This document shows, in pieces, positions 1 through 12,101 of a stretch of 37,085 nucleotides of DNA. Position 1 is the first letter of the stretch. Each line of letters starts with the position of its first letter. The translations under genes were made by a program, and so were the position numbers. Below the pieces are notes generated by a model that saw only the letters and a list, made by a program, of their open reading frames with translations, searched no databases and was not told where the DNA came from. The DNA is taken from contig NW_003129358.1 in NCBI RefSeq assembly GCF_000003605.2, positions 664,017 through 701,101 on the forward strand. The letters are read 5' to 3'. The DNA is from Saccoglossus kowalevskii. Taxonomy: Eukaryota; Hemichordata; Enteropneusta; Harrimaniidae.

Positions 1-855
1 AACAGTATATAGTTCAGTAATCGATTCTGTAGATGCTCTTGTCATGGGTTGTGTAATTCCTTTATCAGTGATAGATGTGATATCATTAGTGGTTGTCCAG
101 TCTGCAGTTTGTTCTGTTATTGAATCAGTTTCAACAGTATACAGTTCAGTAATCCATTCTGTAGATGCTCCTGTCATGGGTTGAGTTATTCTTTGATGAG
201 TTACAGAAGGTGTATCATTAGTGGTTGTTGAGTCTGCAGTTTGTTCTATTATTGAATCCGTTTCTGCAGTATATAGTTCAGTAATCCATTCTGTGGATGC
301 TCTTGTCATGGGTTGTGTAATTCCTTGATCAGTGACAAAAGTGATATCATTAGTGGTTGTCGAGTCTTCAGTTTGTTCTGTTATTGAATCAGTTTCAGCA
401 GTATATAGTTCAGTAATCCATTCTGTAGATACTCTTGTCATGGGTTGTGTAATTTTTTGATCAGTGACAGAAGTGATATCATTAGTGGTTGTCGAGTCTG
501 CAGTTTGTTCTGTTATTGCATCAGTTTCTGCAGTATATAGTTCAGTAATCCATTCTGTAGATGCTCTTTTCATGGGTTGAGTAATTCCTGGATCAGTGAT
601 AGATGTGATATCATTAGTGGTTGTCGAGTCTGCAGTTTGTTCTGTTATTGCATCAGTTTCTGCAGTATATAGTTCAGTAATCCATTCTGTAGATGCTCTT
701 TTCATAGGTTGAGTAATTCCTGGATCAGTGAGAGAAGTTATATCATTAGTGGTTGTCGAGTCTGCAGTGTGTTCTGTTATTGATTCAGTTTCTGCAGTAT
801 ATAGTTCTGTAATCCGTGTTTCTGTCACGAGTTCAGTGAGAGAAATGACTTTATC
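1..855 (-). repeat. 132-bp (44-codon) coding tandem repeat
   Basis: Equivalent points recur at about 63, 195, 327, 459, 591 and 723, exactly 132 bases apart, so each unit encodes 44 residues and preserves frame. Units differ by only a few substitutions. The array is cut by the left window edge. Units above about 855 (to around 1500) are recognisable but shortened and diverged, suggesting that recent homogenisation acted mainly on the distal copies. Confidence 0.9.
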
Positions 856-2302
856 AGTGATTTCTTCAGTTTGTTCTGTTATTAAATCAGTTTCTATGGT
901 AAACAGTTCTGTAATCCATTGTGTAGATGCTCCAGTCATAGGTTTAATGACAAAAGTGGCTTTATCAGTAATTACTGTTTCTTCAGTTTGTTCTGTTATT
1001 GAATCGGTTTCTGTATTATACACTTTTGTTCCCCATTCTGTAAACTTTCTAGTCACAAGTTGAGTTGTCTCTTTATCAGTGGCGGAATTGACTGTCTCGT
1101 CTGCAGTTTGTTCTGTTATTGAAGTTTCTGCAGTGTAAAATCCTTCCGTCCATTCTGTTGATTTTTCTGTCATAGGTTTAATTGTATCTGTATCAGTGAC
1201 CTTATACGTGAGTGTTTCTTCTGTAGTTTGTTCTTTTTTTATTGACACAGTTTCTGTAGTATTATGTTCTGCAATCCAGTCCGTAGATGGCCCAGGCATA
1301 GTTTGAGTTGATGCTTCTTCAACAACTGAAGTAGCTTCATGAGTGATGGTCATTTCTGTGGTTTGATCAGTTATTAATACTGTTATTGTGTCTGTTGATA
1401 TTATCATCATTGGTTGAGTTGTTGCTTCATCAATAACAGAAATGGTATCATGACTGATTGTCTCATCTGACGTATGGTATGTTGGCTTAGTTCCTATGGT
1501 ATAGAGAACTTCTATCGATTTTGCAGATGTGTCAGTCATAGGTTGAGTTATTGTAAAAGTAGTTTCAGAAGGGTTTGTCGAACCAACTGTATGTTGTATT
1601 GTTGGTTCATCTGTAATAAAAATAGAGTCATCAGTGATTGTATCATCTGTTGCTTGGCTTGATGTAATAATTGCTGTTTCTATAGTATGCACATTTGTAA
1701 TCAAATCAGGAGATATTTGAATTGGTGTTGTTGTCTCATCTAAATTTGGTTTAGAGATGTTTATTTGATATGTCATTTTTTCTGTTGTTACTGTCTCACT
1801 TATTTCAATTATTGTTTGTGTTGTTTCTTCACTAGTAGCAATTTCAGAAGTAGTTGTGTTGTCATTTGTGGTGTCATTTGTTGTGTGACTTCTGTTTCTG
1901 TTGGGTGGAGTTTTGTAATAATGTCTGTAAATATTGCACTGGTACGTTCTGGCATAGCTAATGATGTCTCAGAAATTATTGTCATATCTGCAATCTGGGT
2001 TGGGAAATACATACCTGTAATCTTTTCTGTTGCTTCTTTAGTATTCAAAGTTACTTGAGAAATTGTCTCAATTTCTGTTGTTGTAAAAGTTGCAACAGAT
2101 CCATCTTCCATTTCTGCTGTAGATGCATCAGTGATTGACGAAGTTAGGTTACCGTCGACAGAGTGTGTTCTGGCAACAGTTGGTTGTATTGTTGTAATCA
2201 ATCTTTTTGGAGTAGTTGATATAGCTGTAAAAGTATAGTTTATCGTCATCATCTCGAACACATGCAGTTTTATATCAGGGTGCGTCATAGAGCAGGGGTT
2301 TT
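1..2302 (-). CDS. Thr/Ser/Glu-rich mucin-like exon of the sushi gene (partial, one frame break)
   Basis: Downstream part of the minus-strand sushi protein, running off the left edge. Read from about 2302, one frame is open to a stop at 1809-1811. A second frame is open from 1968 to base 1. Both give the same low-complexity Thr/Ser/Glu/Ile-rich, Cys-poor composition, so the coding region probably changes frame once between 1968 and 1812, as if one base were missing. The last part consists of 44-residue repeats with motifs such as STEWITELYTAETDSITEQT. Such regions are typically O-glycosylated extracellular stalks; that role is inferred. No transmembrane segment or stop is reached. The acceptor is placed after CAGAG at 2307-2303 because it gives a phase-1 junction like the upstream exons; an AG two bases earlier would give phase 2. 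The composition and repeats are clear; the exact start and frame transition are uncertain. Confidence 0.7.
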
Positions 2303-2803: not shown

Positions 2804-2889
2804 CTACGAAAGGTTTAAGATCTTTTATTTTTTGAGTCATTGTCTAATGCGTACTTATAACATAAGTACGTACAGATTATGCATTTTAC

Positions 2890-3093
2890 CTAGTATACAT
2901 TGAGTAGACCTATCTGTCCAAGATCCATCATTGCAGAAGGAACTACCAGAACCAATTTGACCATATCCAGCATTGCAGGTGATGATGATGGCACTGCCGT
3001 GGTGATAGAGTGTTATTGTACCATTCATTGACACAACATCATTAAAGCTCACTAGTCTTGTAATACTGTTCTCTGAATATGAATGACATGGTG
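2890..3093 (-). CDS. Sushi/CCP domain exon 7 (last in the protein)
   Basis: A 204-bp phase 1-1 exon between an acceptor ending TGCGCAG and a donor GTAAAA. It encodes one complete complement-control (sushi) module: first Cys in PCHS, second in ITCNAGYG, third in SFCNDGSW with the conserved Trp, fourth in TQC. This four-Cys plus Trp pattern is the family signature; the module forms disulfides 1-3 and 2-4 and serves in extracellular binding. A long first loop (about 34 residues between Cys1 and Cys2) makes this one of the larger modules in the gene. It is followed by the candidate micro-exon or directly by the Thr-rich exon. Confidence 0.9.
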
Positions 3094-3390
3094 CTGCGCA
3101 GATAAAAACAATAGAGTTATGATTGAAATTTATTCATTCTGCCCTCTTTTCTTCATTCTTTCTTTCCTTTACCCGTACTTAAATTGGTGGTGTTGAAAGA
3201 CAAGAAATAACAAATTTTTAAATTTGTAATATCTAATTGTTTAATATGTTTCTATATTGTCGTTGAGTAGCGGGGGCGTTGTTCATTATTAATTGCGAGA
3301 ATTGTATTGATTTATTGTCATCTATTGATCAAATTGATATTTGCGATCTTTGTTTTCACTGTGTTGTGTCGTGTTATGATGTGATGTAAT
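3094..3390 (-). other. Part of the intron between sushi exons 6 and 7
   Basis: Single-copy AT-rich intron sequence next to the 51-bp array. No ORF or repeat is recognised. Confidence 0.5.
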
Positions 3391-3789
3391 ACATCTGACA
3401 CGTACTTACCAAGACAAGTCTGTAGGTCGTTATCTCATAATGCACTGACACTTACTTACCAAGACAAGTCGGCATGTCGTTATCCCATAATGCATCTGAC
3501 ACGTACTTACCAAGACAAGTCGGTATGTCGTTATCCCATAATGCATCTGACACGTACTTACCAAGACAAGTCGGTATGTCGTTATGCCATAATGCATCTG
3601 ACACGTACATACCAAGACAAATCGGTATGTCGTTATCCCATAATGCATCTGACACGTACTTACCAAGACAAGTCGGCATGTCGTTTCCCCATAATGCATC
3701 TGACACGTACTTAACAAGACAAGTCGGTATGTCGTTATCCCATAATGCATCTGACACGTACTTACCAAGACAAGTCGGTATGTCGTTAT
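3391..3789 (-). repeat. 51-bp tandem array duplicating an exon 3' end with its splice donor
   Basis: About eight copies of a 51-bp unit. Each carries the end of sushi exon 6 (encoding WDNDIPTC) and the following donor GTAAGT. Plus-strand donor complements lie at 3760-3765, 3709-3714, 3658-3663, 3607-3612, 3556-3561, 3505-3510, 3454-3459 and 3404-3409. The copy at 3709-3714 has lost the GT; the copy at 3607-3612 reads GTATGT. Because 51 is a multiple of three, the minus strand stays open from the exon through six further 17-residue units (LGKYVSDALWDNDIPTC-like) until a TAA at 3452-3454. The copy nearest 3391 is offset by one base. ORFs on the plus strand here are by-products of the periodicity. 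Confidence 0.95.
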
Positions 3790-3939
3790 CCCATTTTCCG
3801 TCGTAGCATGTAGCGGACTTACTACCTGATAACTCATAACCTTCATCGCATCTGAAAGTTATGACGCTGTATGACGTATATGGGTCCCCTAGTCCATCAT
3901 TTAACCCGTTAGCAGGCATCCCCGGATCTTCACACATAG
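3766..3939 (-). CDS. Sushi/CCP domain exon 6, with several candidate 3' ends
   Basis: A phase-1 exon after an acceptor ending GTTACAG. It encodes a full sushi module: MCEDPGMPANG, then ITFRCDEGYELSGSKSATCYDGKW, then IPTC. Cys1-Cys4 and the Trp are all present. The end given uses the first donor (GTAAGT at 3765-3760), which gives a normal-length 174-bp module. The exon runs into the 51-bp array. Use of a donor in a later copy would end the exon at 3664, 3613, 3562 or 3511, always in phase 1, adding 2 to 5 seventeen-residue units. Each unit carries one Trp and one extra Cys. Which donors are used cannot be seen from DNA. Confidence 0.9.
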
Positions 3940-4349
3940 CTGTAACGGTATTTCAACACTATTAAAATGGCGCATCTCGAGAAATCAACGTTTAATAAAC
4001 CTTCTTAAAAATGTAGTTGTTGGTTGAGAGTGGTGTTGTGAGAGGATAGAACATGTGAGTTGATAGAAATGTTTGTCTTTTCTTATATTGAAAACTTTGA
4101 ACCTACGGGTTCCTTACTTTGAAAATATGCCAGTGATTGGCTAATTTTATCAATTTCTTATTCAGGCCGAAAATACTTCCTTACAGAGCAAAAACGTTTC
4201 CTGGTTGTTAGACAGTATTATGTATAGAAATATCTCGTCAACACAGTTTGGTCGACATAAAAAAAAAAACGCCTTGGTTGCAGCACGCCAATGGTGTATA
4301 TAATCTTCTGAAAAGAGAATGAAAGAACGACAAAGACGCGGATACTTAC
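3940..4349 (-). other. Intron between sushi exons 5 and 6
   Basis: AT-rich, with a short A run at 4259-4269. No ORF continues a domain here. An open frame extends past the exon-5 donor down to 4162, but it has no sushi pattern and is treated as intron read-through. Confidence 0.6.
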
Positions 4350-4541
4350 ATAAGCACGGAGGCTGAATGCTCACAAGAGGGTACCACGAACCATCAGGTT
4401 GACACGTGATACTGTCAGGTCCAAATAAGGTTTTACCAATTGGGCAATTGAAGTACAGAACGTCATAATGTGCAAAACCCTGAACTGGTGGGGTTTTCAT
4501 CGGTGCGTCGCCATGTAGTGGCACGCCGGGCAACTCACAAC
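4350..4541 (-). CDS. Sushi/CCP domain exon 5
   Basis: A 192-bp phase 1-1 exon; acceptor ...GACTATCAG, donor GTAAGT after CTTAT. It encodes CELPGVPLHG, then LYFNCPIGKTLFGPDSITCQPDGSW, then PPC, giving the four cysteines and Trp of a sushi module. The Cys2 region has PIGK where GY is more usual, a mild divergence from the consensus. The insertion between Trp and Cys4 (YPLVSIQPP) is slightly long. Confidence 0.9.
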
Positions 4542-4555
4542 CTGATAGTCGAACA

Positions 4556-4584
4556 AATATAAATAAATAAATAAATAAATAAAT
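4556..4584. repeat. (AAAT)n microsatellite
   Basis: About seven AAAT units in the 238-bp intron between sushi exons 4 and 5, close to the acceptor of exon 5 and therefore near its branch-point region. Confidence 0.9.
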
Positions 4585-4779
4585 CGTTTGTTTGTCCGTG
4601 CGTACTATAATTTCTCATTGCATGTGCGTTTACGTAGTTCATGATTAATTTCATCAAACAAGTACTTCTCCGTGTGCCGCCAAAATTAAACTTCAGTAAA
4701 TCAATAAATTTAGTCTGTAAATCAATATGCAACACAACTACCAAACAATGCTCAAGTTATGCAAATTGAACGGCGATAC

Positions 4780-4980
4780 CTTTGCAGTGAGAGGCCGTCT
4801 GCGTCCACGCTCCATCGTTACACTGTGACATAGTCAGTCCATATAAAGTATATCCATTGTCACATGACATCGTAATTATGCTTCCGTGTATGTATACTAC
4901 GTCATCTCCACTGGTGTACTTGTCGTTTGGGTCATTGATAGTTGTAATACCATTATCTATGTCATAGTTATAGCACGGTG
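4780..4980 (-). CDS. Sushi/CCP domain exon 4
   Basis: A 201-bp phase 1-1 exon; acceptor GTCTTCACAG, donor GTATCG (weaker than the others). It encodes PCYNYDIDNG, then ITMSCDNGYTLYGLTMSQCNDGAW, then SHC. All four cysteines and the Trp are present. The Cys1-Cys2 loop contains a polar Asp/Asn-rich stretch (NDPNDKYTSGDD). Confidence 0.9.
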
Positions 4981-5542
4981 CTGTGAAGACAACGTTGTTG
5001 TCAGTTATTCTGGTATGTGTACGCACCGACGAATGACATTACAGTGCTTGACAATAATTGCACATAATGGTGGTTACATGTAGATATTATATCTGTGACT
5101 GTGTACTACGTCATTTATTCAGCTATTGCAAATATTTCCTTATCCGGTAAAGAGAATAACAGTTTGCTCGCCAATTTCCATTTGCCCTCCCCATTTTACA
5201 AAAAAATAATGGAGGAGTCTAATATGCGCATATGTATGCATTGTAATCTTGAGCATTGCAATTGGTTGGTTCTTTCATTCACGCGTTGCGCATACCGACC
5301 ATTCAAAACAAAATTACATGTGTGTCGTAGAGAGATACTGTTGCGGTGTGAGATAAGCCAATCAGAAGTTGGTGACTTATTATTGTTGGAAAATAGCGAC
5401 GCAAGAATATTCTTATGTTCGTTTGTTATTAACATATTGCATAAACACTGTCCTCTATGTTGGTTTAACTTTTAAAAATTAACTCACGTCAACAATTCGA
5501 TACAATTACGTTTGTTAAAACCATTTTTTCCGGAAAACTCAC
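4981..5542 (-). other. Intron between sushi exons 3 and 4
   Basis: No repeat or domain recognised. Overlapping plus- and minus-strand ORFs around 5095-5475 have no recognisable motif or matching splice sites and look like chance open frames. Confidence 0.5.
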
Positions 5543-5725
5543 ATAGGCATCTTGGTTGAGGATCGGACCAGTTCCCGAACGTAGAACACGTGATTTCCGA
5601 ACGTGGTGACACCGTATATCCGTCATCACAATGAAAGGTTACTATGGTACCGGCTTCGTAGTAACCGTCTCTGGGGTTGGGTGAGACCTCGCCATGGGTC
5701 GGCGGAGTAACTTGACCACATGCAA
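5543..5725 (-). CDS. Sushi/CCP domain exon 3
   Basis: A 183-bp phase 1-1 exon; acceptor CACTCTTTCAG, donor GTGAGT. It encodes ACGQVTPPTHG, then VTFHCDDGYTVSPRSEITCSTFGNWSD, then PRC. This is a textbook sushi module with four cysteines, the GY after Cys2 and the Trp between Cys3 and Cys4. It is GC-richer than its introns, as expected for a real exon. Confidence 0.93.
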
Positions 5726-6347
5726 CTGAAAGAGTGACAGGCTTCCTAAATCATTGCCAACTTAGACATGAATGTGATACAAAACAATGAAACAAACATC
5801 CGGAATAATTTCTGAAGACCCGTTTCAACCTTGTGAGATACTGCCCATTGTAAATTGCTATTTTTCTTTTATTTTTTGGACAAAAGATTTGGGCGTTTAT
5901 GCTGCGTGACACAGTGTTTTTAATTACGTCAGAAAATCGCAAAGGCTCGTTCGCATTTCTGTCATGGTGACAAACTCAGTGTAGCAGCATTCCACCAAGT
6001 GACTTATAACGACCTCAGAACTGCAGTAATTGGGTGTATAGAAATAGGGAGTACTGTTTTATAGATTATTGCACGACGAACCGGCCAGACTGAATAAAAT
6101 AAACTCGAACAATCACGTAACATTGAAACCCACAGATAGTAAAGCTATTAATATTTACCAAGATATTTATCATTTGTTTATTGGCCAACTATCAACCAAC
6201 AAGTTTGAATAGCGTTTATAATTAGTAAATATGGGAACTTCCCGAAATGTAGCGGTAGTTTCGAGATAAATGCTGACGCCAGGATTCATTTTTGTCCATA
6301 TTGTTTCTCTTCAAGAAAGCAATCAACTGTTACAAATACATGCTTAC
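5726..6347 (-). other. Intron between sushi exons 2 and 3
   Basis: AT-rich with no gene-like ORF beyond a motif-less 63-codon frame at 5751-5942. I see nothing to annotate. Confidence 0.5.
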
Positions 6348-6518
6348 GTCGACATGATGGGTTGGCACCGTCCCACATTCCATTGGTACACGTACGGGAA
6401 CTACTGCCAACCATAGTATACCCAGTGTTACAGTTAAAATTGACCGTTGTATATGACGTATATGGATAGCTTCCGTCGTGCCCGCCATTTTCTGGTGATT
6501 CAGGGTCATTACACTGTC
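6348..6518 (-). CDS. Sushi/CCP domain exon 2
   Basis: A 171-bp phase 1-1 exon; acceptor CTCGCTGCACAG, donor GTAAGC. It encodes QCNDPESPENGG, then VNFNCNTGYTMVGSSSRTCTNGMWDG, then PSC. All four cysteines and the Trp are present. It is the shortest module in the gene (57 codons). It was not in a long ATG-initiated ORF; it was found by reading the splice frame. Confidence 0.93.
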
Positions 6519-6658
6519 CTGTGCAGCGAGAGAATAATAATAATTTGATTAATAAACCGATCTTTATAATAATTGATTATATTGCGTATAATGGTTCCCG
6601 TATTTTGTTTACTTATAGATATAACCGAAATAATGTTATTCTTTGTATGTAAACTCAT

Positions 6659-6921
6659 TTAAAGCGGGAGAGTCGTCACTTGCGCACGTGCGGGTATTGA
6701 GTCTCAGGCGACGATAACAATAGTCTGATCCCCTGCCCCAATTTCAACGCTGAGGGCGGTTAAATTTTCTTAACCGCCCTCAGCGGTGAAATTGGGGCAG
6801 GGGACCAGACTACGATAACAAAACACGCAAAAAACGCAAAGTCTCATGGGTAGACGATTGTTTGTAAACGACACGCTATGCCTATCTGACGCATGCGCAG
6901 GTGACGACTCCCCCGCTTTAA
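6659..6921. mobile_element. TTAA-flanked MITE with internal foldback
   Basis: In the intron between sushi exons 1 and 2. The ends are inverted repeats beginning TTAAAGCGGG(G)GAGTCGTCAC and reading inward to TGCGCA, about 26 bases with few mismatches. TTAA lies at both ends, consistent with a TTAA target duplication. The termini resemble those of six other elements in this window (AGCG..GG..GTCGTC). There is no coding capacity, so it would be non-autonomous. A nearly perfect internal hairpin occupies 6722-6811. Confidence 0.7.
6722..6811. repeat. 42-bp inverted repeat (hairpin)
   Basis: Arms 6722-6763 and 6770-6811 are reverse complements with only about two mismatches, separated by six bases. 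The arms begin AGTCTG and end GGTTAA. A transcript through this intron could form a long stem here. Confidence 0.9.
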
Positions 6922-7223
6922 TGACGGTGACGAAATAAACAGGACGTCTTTGTTTGTAACTGACGTTTCCAGTTTCGCATGGTCGTGGTGCAAGTAACAA
7001 GGGGACTAAAAGTGTATCGGGTATTTGTGATCGTTCAACACATACATAATCTCCCGCAGACGGTAACAAATAGAGATGAGTTGAAACGATATGTGATTGG
7101 ATGCTATGGCGTTACGACAACACGTGAAGTGATGACGTGACGCAATGTGATTTGACATTTAATACAAACATATACAAATTAAAATTTAAAGTGATCTAGA
7201 TAAAATGGATTTTTTTTCCTTAC

Positions 7224-7415
7224 GCTGACACGTTGGGGTGTAGGGAATATCCGGGTCCCATCCACCGTTTGATTGACAGGTCAGTTCACTGGGACCAATC
7301 AATGAATAACCATCGTAGCAGGTAAACGTAACCGTATCATCGGTGTCATAAGGCATGTCATGTGATGTAATAGAAGCGTCCCCGGGTAGCGTCATTATGT
7401 TCGGTAAACTGCATC
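7224..7415 (-). CDS. Sushi/CCP domain exon 1
   Basis: A 192-bp phase 1-1 exon; acceptor TACATTTTCAG, donor GTAAGG. It encodes [12 protein letters not shown], then [25 protein letters not shown], then PTC. The four cysteines and the Trp are all present. It is the first sushi module after the signal-peptide exon: joining the final G of that exon (14145) to GA here makes a Gly codon and leaves the frame open. Confidence 0.92.
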
Positions 7416-9680
7416 CTGAAAATGTAATCTGTCATTAATCTGTCTTAATCCGAATACACAAGATTACGGCTTGTCAATGAGATTAGTACCACATTCATCG
7501 TTCAGTTCACATTCGAATTTCACTGTCAAGTCTAACGTGAATATTTGCAATACATAATTATTCCCATTGATCAACCGCAATTTATAACAAATAAATATAG
7601 TCTGTAAGTCGACGCCAGCTTTGTGGGAATGACATTATTGTGAGACGATAATAAGATAATAACTGCGGTAACCAAATGGAAAATCCAACGACTCATCCTT
7701 GACTTCCACATTTGATTTTAATGGTAATATTTTATTCCATACTTCAAAACAAAATTACAATGAGAAATGGTTTAACAAATTAATTACAGCAACTTGTGCA
7801 ATTTATAAAAAAGGTGGACAAAAAAACTTTTTTCTGAATGATGCTCATGATTATTTCGAGATTGGATCAATGTCCACCCGCCCCACCCCAACCCCATTCC
7901 ACCCCATTCCACCCCAATTCACCCCACTCCAACACCATTTCACCCCACTCCAACACCATTCCACCCCACTCCAACACCATTCCACCCCACTCCAACACCA
8001 TTCCACCCACCTCATCCCTGATATCGTGTACATCAGAATATCCATCCACCACACTCCAACACCATTTCACCCCACTCCAACATCATTTTACCCCACTTCA
8101 ACCCCATTCCAGCCCACTCCAACACCATTTCACCCCACTCCAACACCATTTCACCCCACTCCAACACCATTTCACCCCACGCCAACACCATTGCACCTCA
8201 CTTCAACACCATCTCACCCCACTTCAACCCCATTCCACCCCACTCCAACACCATTTCACCCCACTCCAACACCATTTCACCCCACTCCAACACCATTGCA
8301 CCCCATTCCAACACCATTCCACCCACCTCATCCCTGATATCGTGTACATCAGAATATTCATCCACCACACTCCAACCCCATTCCACCCCACTCCAACACC
8401 ATTTCACCCCACTCCAACATCATTTCACCCCACTCCAACACCATTTCACCCCACGCCAACACCATTGCACCTCACTTCAACACCATTTCACCCCACTCCA
8501 ACACCATTGCACCGGCCCCATTCCTGATATCGTGTACATCAGAATATCCATCCACCACACTTCAACACCTTTTCACCCCACGCCAACACCATTTCACCTC
8601 ACTTCAACCCCATTCCACCCCACTCCAACACCATTTCACCCCACTCCAACACCATTTCACCCCACTCCAACACCATTTCACTCCACGCCAACACCATTGC
8701 ACCTCACTTCAACACCATTTCACCCCACTCCAACACCATTTCATCCCACTTCAACACCATTCCACCCCACTCCAACACCATTTCACCCCACTCCAACACC
8801 ATTTCACCCCACTCCAACACCATTTCACCCCACGCCAACACCATTGCACCTCACTTCAACACCATTTCACCCCACTCCAACACCATTTCATCCCACTTCA
8901 ACACCATTCCACTCCAATCCAACACCATTTCACCCCACTGGAACACCATTTCACCCCACTCCAACACCATTTCACCCACTCCAACACCATTTCACCCCAC
9001 TCCAACTCCATTTCACCCCACTTCAACACCATTCCACCCCACTCCAACACCATTTCACCCCACTGGAACACCATTTCACCCCACTCCAACACCATTTCAC
9101 CCCACTCCAACACCATTTCACCCCACTCCAACACCATTTCACCCCACTCCAACACCATTTCACCCCACGCCAACACCATTGCACCTCACTACAACACCAT
9201 TTCACCCCACTCCAACACCATTCCACCCACCTCATCCCTGATATCGTGTACATCAGAATATCCACCCACCTCACTCCAACCCCATTCCACCCCACTCCAA
9301 CACCATTCCACCCCACTCCAACACCATTTCACCCCACGCCAACACCATTGCACCTCACTTCAACACCATTTCACCCCACGCCAACACCATTGCACCTCAC
9401 TTCAACCCCATTTCACCCCACTCCAACACCATTTCACCCCACGCCAACACCATTGCACCTCACTTCAACACCATTTCACCCCACTCCAACATCATTCCAC
9501 CCACCTCATCCCTGATATCGTGTACATCAGAATATTCATCCACCCCACTCCAACACCATTTCACCCCACTCCAACACCATTTCACCCCACTTCAACACCA
9601 TTCCACCCCACTCCAACACCATTTCACCCCACTCCAACACCATTGCACCCCACTCCAACACCATTGCACCCAGCCCCATT

Positions 9681-10190
9681 CCTGATATCGTGTACATCAG
9701 AATATTCATCCACCCCACTTCAACACCATTTCACCCCACTCCAACACCATTTCACCCCACTTCAACACCATGCCACCCCACTCCAACACCATTTCACCCC
9801 ACTCCAACACCATTTCACCCCACTCCAACACCATTGCACCCCGCCCCATTCCTGATATCGTGTACATCAGAATATCCATCCACCACACTCCAACACCATT
9901 TCACCACACTCCAACACCATTTCACCCCACTTCAATACCATTCCACCCCACTCCAACACCATTTCACCCCACTCCAACACCATTGCACCCCACTCCAACA
10001 CCATTGCACCCAGCCCCATTCCTGATATCGTGTACATCAGAATATTCATCCACCCCACTTCAACACCATTTCACCCCACTCCAACACCATTTCACCCCAC
10101 TTCAACACCATTCCACCCCACTCCAACACCATTTCACCCCACTCCAACACCATTTCACCCCACTCCAACACCATTGCACCCCGCCCCATT
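9681..10190. repeat. 170-bp higher-order repeats within the minisatellite
   Basis: The spacer start CCTGATATCG recurs at 9681, 9851, 10021 and 10191, exactly 170 bases apart. Alternate blocks resemble each other more closely than neighbours do (for example 9690 onward versus 10030 onward), indicating a 340-bp duplication. Confidence 0.85.
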
Positions 10191-11090
10191 CCTGATATCG
10201 TGTACATCAGAATATCCATCCACCACACTCCAACACCATTTCACCACACTCCAACACCATTTCACCCCACGCCAACACCATTTCACCTCACTTCAACACC
10301 ATTCCACCCCACTTCAACACCATTTCACCCCACTCCAACACCATTTCACCCCACGCCAACACCATTTCACCTCACTTCAACACCATTCCACCCCACTTCA
10401 ACACCATTTCACCCCACTCCAACACCATTTCACCCCACTCCAACACCATTTCACCCCACTCCAACACCATTTCACCCCACTCCAACACCATTTCACCCCA
10501 CGCCAACACCATTGCACCTCACTTCAACACCATTTCACCCCACTCCAACACCATTTCACCCCACTCCAACACCATTGCACCCCGCCCCATTCCTGATATC
10601 GTGTACATCAGAATATCCACCCACCACACTCCAACACCATTTCACCCCACTCCAACACCATTTCACCCCACTCCAACACCATTGCACCCCGCCCCATTCC
10701 TGATATCGTGTACATCAGAATATCCATCCACCACACTCCAACACCATTTCACCCCACTCCAACACCATTTCACCCCACTCCAACACCATTTCACCCCACT
10801 TCAACCCCATTCCACCCCACTCCAACACCATTTCACCCCACTCCAACACCATTGCACCCGCCCCATTCCTGATATCGTGTACATCAGAATATCCATCCAC
10901 CACACTCCAACACCATTTCACCCCACGCCAACACCATTTCACCTCACTTCAACACCATTCCACCCCACTCCAACACCATTTCAGCCCACTCCAACACCAT
11001 TGCACCCCGCCCCATCCCTGATATCGTGTACATCAGAATATCCATCCACCACACTCCAACCCCAATCCACCCACCTCATCCCTGATATCA

Positions 11091-11400
11091 CGTACATTAG
11101 AATATCCACCCACCCCACTCCAACCCTTTACACCCACCTCATCCCTGATATCATGTACATCAGAATATCCACCCACCCAACTCCAACCCTTTACACCCAC
11201 TTCATCCCTGATATCATGAACATCAGAATATCCACTCACCCCACTCCAACCTTTTACACCCACCTCATTCCTGATATCATGTACATCAGAATATCCACCC
11301 ACCCCACTCCAACCCTTTACACCCACCTCATCCCTGATATCGTGTACGTCAGAATATCCACCCACCCGATCACTGATATCGTGTACGTCAGAATATCCAC
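11091..11400. repeat. 63-bp spacer-rich end of the minisatellite
   Basis: At this edge the spacer recurs at 11144, 11207, 11270 and 11333, 63 bases apart, with the 21-bp units almost gone and the spacer reading GATATCATGTACATC. This looks like an older or separately amplified form of the array. Confidence 0.8.
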
Positions 11401-12101
11401 CCACCCCACTCCAACCCCATTAGACCCCATCTCATGATATCATCCCAGGTATCGTGCACATCAGAATTCGCAATATCAAATGTTATTCAGAAGCATCGTA
11501 AGATGTCCCAAGAATTGATTTTCAGTTTGTATTTCGTTTCATGGTGAAATACATTTTGCCTTCCATTTTTTAGTTATATTGGAGAGCAGTATGCTACAAT
11601 TGAAATAGCGGGATCGTCGTGGCGATATAGAGCGGTCGTCGATTTGCCCAACCTGTTTTAATGCATTGACTTAGTAAAGGTTTCTTCAAAACCGAAAACC
11701 AAAGATTGGCAAGACTCAGTTTAAAAAACACGCTTTAAAATTATGTTATGGTAGAATCATCATGACTAATATATAGTGATATCAAATATTTGAATTAAAC
11801 CGTTTTCCTACTCCAACATATTTCAAAATAGCTAAAAGTATTTATAATATCAGTATTCAGAACGACATATTCGGGCAATTGCAGTGCTGCTCTATGTTGC
11901 ATAGAGAATGGGTTTGGTTCACCCAAATCCTAGTTTAAACGCGCAGTCAACGAGAAGCTAGTTACAAGACTGTGTCGGATTAACTACCAAACAATCTAAC
12001 AATCAGACCAATCAGAGAGCAGGTTGTTTTTGAATTTTTTCGACGTATCAGATGCTGTCTTACATATATTCTTTGACTCAACTAGCAAGTTTTAACGTGT
12101 G

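Follow-up and report, generated by a model that had tools for sequence, protein, structure and literature searches.

Within the 37,085 nucleotides of Saccoglossus kowalevskii DNA analyzed here (the window), a 51-bp minisatellite repeats the end of a sushi-domain exon together with its splice donor on the minus strand, and the reading frame stays open behind the first donor through six further units. We propose that this first donor, at 3765, is probably the one in use and that the rest of the array is redundant and neutral, with some in-frame leakage possible.

The array repeats an exon end and its donor

TRF delimited a single array with a period of 51, 93% matches, 0% indels and a score of 718, in agreement with the sequence-only reading, which had described about eight copies of a 51-bp unit holding the end of sushi exon 6 and its donor.

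3387-3794, minus strand: 51-bp tandem array, 8.0 copies; in each unit, 28 bp belong to the exon end and 23 bp to the intron start

These values are those of a minisatellite, that is, a head-to-tail repeat with a unit of about 10-100 bp. On the minus strand, the 28 bases of exon end, TGGGATAACGACATACCGACTTGTCTTG, are followed by the 23 bases of intron start, GTAAGTACGTGTCAGATGCATTA. The exon-end 28-mer has eight matches with at most three mismatches in the window, every one inside the array, and none in 100 shuffles.

A search of the 572.1-Mb genome (4,830 contigs) with the DNA of the exon plus the array returned one match, in a search that skips very common words, and on this basis a dispersed satellite was dropped as an explanation. 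The single match also means that there is no second allele for comparison, and tandem arrays are often misassembled; the true copy number might therefore differ from eight, or copies might have been misjoined. We nevertheless regard such an artifact as very improbable, because several copies carry private changes, which mechanical duplication would not be expected to produce, and because 408 bp is a modest length.

The host gene encodes tandem sushi modules

Seven sushi exons, of which the sixth carries the array at its end, belong to what looks like a minus-strand gene coding for a mucin-like protein with sushi domains. The exons, whose borders were inferred from the sequence, are arranged as follows.

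7415-7224, 6518-6348, 5725-5543, 4980-4780 and 4541-4350, minus strand: sushi exons 1-5, phase 1-1, together spanning 4350-7415
3766-3939, minus strand: sushi exon 6 in its basic form, 174 nt, phase 1-1, four Cys, ending TTG/GTAAGT
2890-3093, minus strand: sushi exon 7, 204 nt, phase 1-1; its acceptor, TTTTTATCTGCGCAG, would serve all donors of the array
1-2224, minus strand: Thr/Ser-rich, mucin-like exon after exon 7; it is still open where the window ends and changes frame internally

All seven sushi exons are symmetric (phase 1-1), encode one module each and have lengths that are multiples of three (171-204 nt). Six of them reach the cutoff of the Pfam Sushi profile (PF00084), exon 5 scoring 20.5 against 20.7 bits, and the extended frame of exon 6 matches at an E value of 2.9e-10 over residues 7-61. 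The residues C, C, G, C, G, W and C are invariant in eight aligned rows (the seven exons, exon 6 being entered in both its lengths), and the modules have the four Cys and, between the third and the fourth of these, the Trp that, together with the profile match, define a sushi domain. The sushi profile detected no eighth module in the window, and no further exons were found upstream of exon 1 outside the long open reading frames at 11.5-37 kb. Two other profiles touched the extended frame of exon 6, namely, Mastoparan_2 (37.1 bits, with no stretch passing alone) and SHMOOSE (25.3 against a cutoff of 27), and both were set aside as chance scores summed over the repeats. Rfam gave no match in the window.

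Among the matches listed for the exon 6 protein (at least 61, including itself), the best-scoring relative is exon 2 of the same gene, with 50% identity, and the other sushi modules listed share 35-52% identity with it, which does not support a paralogous copy of exon 6. At nine related loci, taken from the 60 others listed, no TRF array touches the matched module; at least three of the nine (L039, L041 and L043) lie in longer multimodule open frames and thus provide no test of exon ends. At one related module elsewhere in the genome, L038, a 29-bp minisatellite (687-1263, 19.8 copies) ends about 240 bp before the matched stretch.

Several additional features of this region were recorded. In the mucin-like exon (1809-1968, minus strand), the frame carried over from exon 7 ends in a stop at 1809, and the Thr/Ser-rich reading shifts near a 12-bp repeat (1854-1886) and proceeds in another frame to base 1, a change that would fit a small intron, an assembly indel or a broken allele. 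The same exon contains a 132-bp unit in 6.2 copies (3-815) that is open on the minus strand and encodes 44-residue Thr-rich repeats, so that the sushi-mucin gene carries a second open array. Beyond sushi exon 1 lies a long C-rich minisatellite (7881-11408) of 21-bp units with further periods of 63 and 316 and a GC skew of -0.86 to -0.89 over 8-11 kb. The stretch from sushi exon 1 to sushi exon 2 holds inverted repeats nested one inside the other (6659-6921), with inner arms at 6721-6763 and 6770-6812 (43 nt, 95%) and outer arms at 6659-6686 and 6894-6921 (28 nt, 93%); these perhaps represent a small palindromic mobile element.

The intact donors are nearly equal in U1 pairing

The eight donors of the array were read from the sequence and, except for the destroyed donor 2, also rated by U1 pairing.

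3760-3765, minus strand: donor 1, GTAAGT, predicted main donor by the rule of PMC6783452
3709-3714, minus strand: donor 2, TTAAGT, destroyed
3658-3663, minus strand: donor 3, GTAAGT, +2 units
3607-3612, minus strand: donor 4, GTATGT, weaker, +3 units
3556-3561, minus strand: donor 5, GTAAGT, +4 units
3505-3510, minus strand: donor 6, GTAAGT, +5 units
3454-3459, minus strand: donor 7, GTAAGTAAG, +6 units, with an in-frame TAA stop just behind
3404-3409, minus strand: donor 8, GTAAGT, use of which would lead to a stop and a shifted frame

Six donors are thus intact GTAAGT sites, one is weak (3612) and one is dead (3714); the loss at 3709-3714 had been noticed in the sequence-only reading, as had the common phase, which holds for donors 1 and 3-7 (five intact, one weaker). 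The arrangement has the sequence layout of alternative tandem 5' splice sites, in that at least two intact donors precede a single acceptor, which ends at 3094.

Duplex energies with the U1 5' end were calculated for all 350 GTs of the minus strand from 7500 to 2100, 45 of which were listed. The intact array donors occupy ranks 1-6 (-10.5 to -10.7 kcal/mol), and donor 3612 is at rank 16 (-6.7 kcal/mol). The remaining inferred donors rank 13 (exon 5), 15 (exon 7), 20 (exon 1), 21 (exon 4) and 24 (exon 3), that of exon 2 being absent among the 45 GTs listed. Since the intact donors are nearly equal in U1 pairing, strength alone cannot choose between them, and position or context must do so.

Local folds of the array donors alone gave a low unpaired probability at all eight. 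Against shuffles, the eight stretches had z values of -1.72 to 1.32, only that of 3612 falling below -1, and one of six control donors had a z of -1.69. Donor-masking hairpins were accordingly dropped, seven of the eight donor stretches being not clearly below shuffle energies. Separately, a hairpin with a 9-bp stem (CGUACUUAU / AUAAGUACG; 2835-2894, minus strand; z -1.69) lies behind the donor of exon 7.

Position points to probable use of the first donor

Competition between donors has been studied in a designed splice-site reporter library, reportedly in human cells. When both tandem donors of a pair were consensus sites, the first was predominantly used, and the first of equally strong donors was preferred in general, a result that, according to the authors, settles earlier conflicting evidence (PMC6783452). 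That library consisted of donor pairs in a reporter and not of eight donors in S. kowalevskii; applied to the array, its first-donor rule predicts use of 3765, which is also the only donor that gives an exon of ordinary size (174 nt). Exon 6 ending at 3765 is a complete four-Cys sushi module, in phase 1-1 like the other six.

Our current working hypothesis is that a 51-bp stretch straddling the junction between sushi exon 6 and its intron was duplicated locally and grew, in the manner of a minisatellite, to eight copies, each of which would have taken along the exon end and a strong donor. The frame would have been kept because 51 is divisible by three and the 23 bases of intron, by chance, contain no stop. 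Donor 3765 would be transcribed first, would pair with U1 as well as the others and would close the normal 174-nt exon, and for these reasons we propose that it is used in most transcripts, the remaining array being spliced out as intron. The other intact donors would be spare and may leak low amounts of in-frame messages with +2 to +6 units. Alternatively, the spare donors may help to define exon 6 through U1 recruitment. The acceptor of exon 6 (3940-3959, minus strand), GTGTTGAAATACCGTTACAG, has a pyrimidine share of 0.50 at -20 to -5, the lowest of the seven, tied with that of exon 1, which makes such help from a cluster of strong donors conceivable.

The opposite preference would lead to use of the donors nearest the intron, with either 3409 giving a stop-bearing, degraded message or 3459 giving a constitutive six-unit form. 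Indeed, SRSF1 is reported to favor intron-near donors in several systems, and hnRNP A1 far ones (PMC5585400); furthermore, among the 350 GTs, donor 3459 pairs best with U1, by a margin of 0.2 kcal/mol, and the open frame ends exactly behind it. Nevertheless, we consider it hardly likely that the intron-nearest donors prevail, given that the designed library (PMC6783452) favors the first of equal tandem donors and that the resulting exons of 480-530 nt would far exceed the other six sushi exons.

The frame allows longer forms of exon 6

Starting at the final exonic base ahead of donor 1, the minus strand is open as follows.

3461-3766, minus strand: open stretch of six 17-residue units of the type GKYVSDALWDNDIPTCL

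The six extra units, each with one Trp and one Cys, are as the sequence-only reading had seen them. Donors 3765, 3663, 3612, 3561, 3510 and 3459 would add 0, 2, 3, 4, 5 and 6 units, giving in-frame exon 6 lengths of 174, 276, 327, 378, 429 and 480 nt; in each case the frame runs on into exon 7 without a stop. The range of zero to five added units suggested earlier must be amended to these values: a form with one unit is missing because only donor 3714 could give it and that donor is dead. Directly after donor 3459 stands a TAA stop, and the next copy is one base short, so that an exon ending at donor 3409 would be 530 nt long, with a shifted frame and a stop inside.

These forms would be of consequence if several donors were used at real levels, placing 0 or 2-6 Cys-bearing units between two sushi modules in a ladder of isoforms whose range would be set by allele length. 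The DNA provides what such a ladder needs: strong donors lie in one phase (five intact and one weaker), the frame is open, the exon is symmetric, and the acceptor preceding 3093 has a good tract, with a pyrimidine share of 0.75. This part of the original proposal stands, whereas no sign of selection on the downstream donors was found (see below), and an intronic array fits better. Moreover, the first of equal tandem donors was favored in the designed library (PMC6783452); the extra units align only to the last positions of the sushi profile, with scores (2.0-3.7 bits) that are not significant; adding an odd number of units would make the Cys count odd; and no coding constraint between copies is apparent. 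Taken together, these points make the ladder unlikely. It is more doubtful still that the array serves as a length dial, in which donor choice and heritable copy number would jointly set 0 or 2-6 Cys-bearing spacers of 17 residues, over a range that would end at the stop behind the seventh donor.

Differences between copies reveal no constraint

Compared with their consensus, the six in-frame units differ in seven codons through eight base changes, and all seven codons alter the residue. Given an expected synonymous share between units of 0.21-0.26, finding none among seven has a p value of 0.12-0.19; if the Ile to Met change common to two units, which may be one event, is counted once, none among six has a p value of 0.16-0.25. 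One codon carries two changes, and one order of these includes a synonymous step. That none of the eight changes creates a stop has a probability of 0.58-0.65.

Changed positions are spread over the exon part (9/224) and the intron part (5/184) of the units (p 0.59), and the donor 9-mers are not spared (2/72 versus 12/336 elsewhere, p 1.0). We thus see no sign of purifying selection on the 17-residue units, in data too few to show more: with only seven changed codons and p values of 0.12-0.19, no constraint is visible and little is ruled out. Against neutrality, one may cite the open frame without indels through six units and the fact that a stop and a deletion occur behind donor 7. The sequence behind donor 7 is also more diverged (6/74 versus 8/306, p 0.036, from a hand count, uncorrected and with a boundary set post hoc), which decay at the array edge explains as well as constraint before donor 7 does.

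Repeats bearing donor motifs are common in the genome

Three GGTAAGT motifs at gaps of 30-60 gave 4,257 matches in the genome versus 7,065 for the reversed pattern, these being counts of matches, which overlap within arrays, and not of arrays. Donor-bearing repeats are therefore common in this genome and not enriched over the reversed control, and the first matches, which were the ones listed, can be seen to be repeats. From those listed, 30 loci on nine contigs were taken, and TRF found a central motif-bearing array in five contigs. By eye, the open tails before these arrays showed no clear exon in the parts of the loci inspected, an observation to which we give no weight.

Under random placement, the probability that at least one of the 11 arrays of the window (unit of at least 12 bp, the 51-mer included) falls across one of seven donors is 0.097, and that for the single 51-mer is 0.008. 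Periods that are multiples of three make up one in three. Some arrays of this kind are expected by chance genome-wide.

These comparisons bear on the alternative that accompanied the ladder from the outset, namely, an intronic array with redundant donors. We find it the better fit because of the first-donor rule (PMC6783452) and the seven of seven codons that change the residue, as well as the unspared donor 9-mers and the abundance of spaced donor motifs.

Discussion

In alternative tandem 5' splice sites, such as the pairs of PMC6783452 and intron 4 of DOK7 (PMC5585400), donors compete for one acceptor and, at equal strength, position decides, as proposed for S. kowalevskii. The array differs from these systems in presenting up to eight near-identical candidate donors that belong to a minisatellite, in steps of 51 nt, with the frame kept up to donor 7.

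A second relative is the gain of introns through tandem duplication, described by Lehmann et al. (2010, PMC2891723), in which duplication likewise multiplies splice signals and multiple-of-three sizes permit alternative forms. The cases described there arose by duplication of an AG/GY proto-splice site within an exon, which created a new intron, whereas the S. kowalevskii array repeats a TTG/GT junction at an existing exon end. No duplicated AG/GY is present, the only YAG of the common unit being that of GTGTCAG, with a pyrimidine share of 0.50-0.60 versus 0.75 at the acceptor of exon 7. A new intron inside the array was rejected, as there is one YAG per common unit, with a weak pyrimidine tract and too near its own donor.

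Two further systems share single features with the array. VNTR6-1 of TERT is also an in-gene minisatellite linked to splicing; it is a 38-bp repeat within intron 6 (PMC11830802), whereas the S. kowalevskii repeat includes an authentic exon end and donor. In SMN2, donor-like sites that U1 can bind lie downstream of the real donor of exon 7, and engineered U1 directed to such cryptic sites promotes inclusion of the exon (PMC11289892). There, U1 was engineered, whereas the S. kowalevskii sites are natural copies, for which such an effect is hypothetical. Sushi (CCP/SCR) genes of family PF00084 typically have one module per exon in phase 1-1, with four Cys and one Trp; exon 6 is unlike the usual sushi exon in that its last residues recur seven more times beyond the first donor. 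Among the open-license papers listed, judged by their titles and the opening lines of their abstracts, we found no case of a minisatellite that repeats an authentic exon end together with its donor, and PMC7556508 and PMC12776774 are not precedents.

The array looks more like a neat natural experiment in splice choice than a proven protein-length switch. With donors that are near-identical, evenly stepped and mostly in one phase, it constitutes a natural counterpart of the tandem-donor experiments and bears on how the spliceosome picks among equal sites. If several donors are used, the length of the minisatellite would set isoform length in a heritable way. Exclusive use of the first would instead make the array a clean in vivo example both of first-donor preference and of a repeat tolerated at a splice border.
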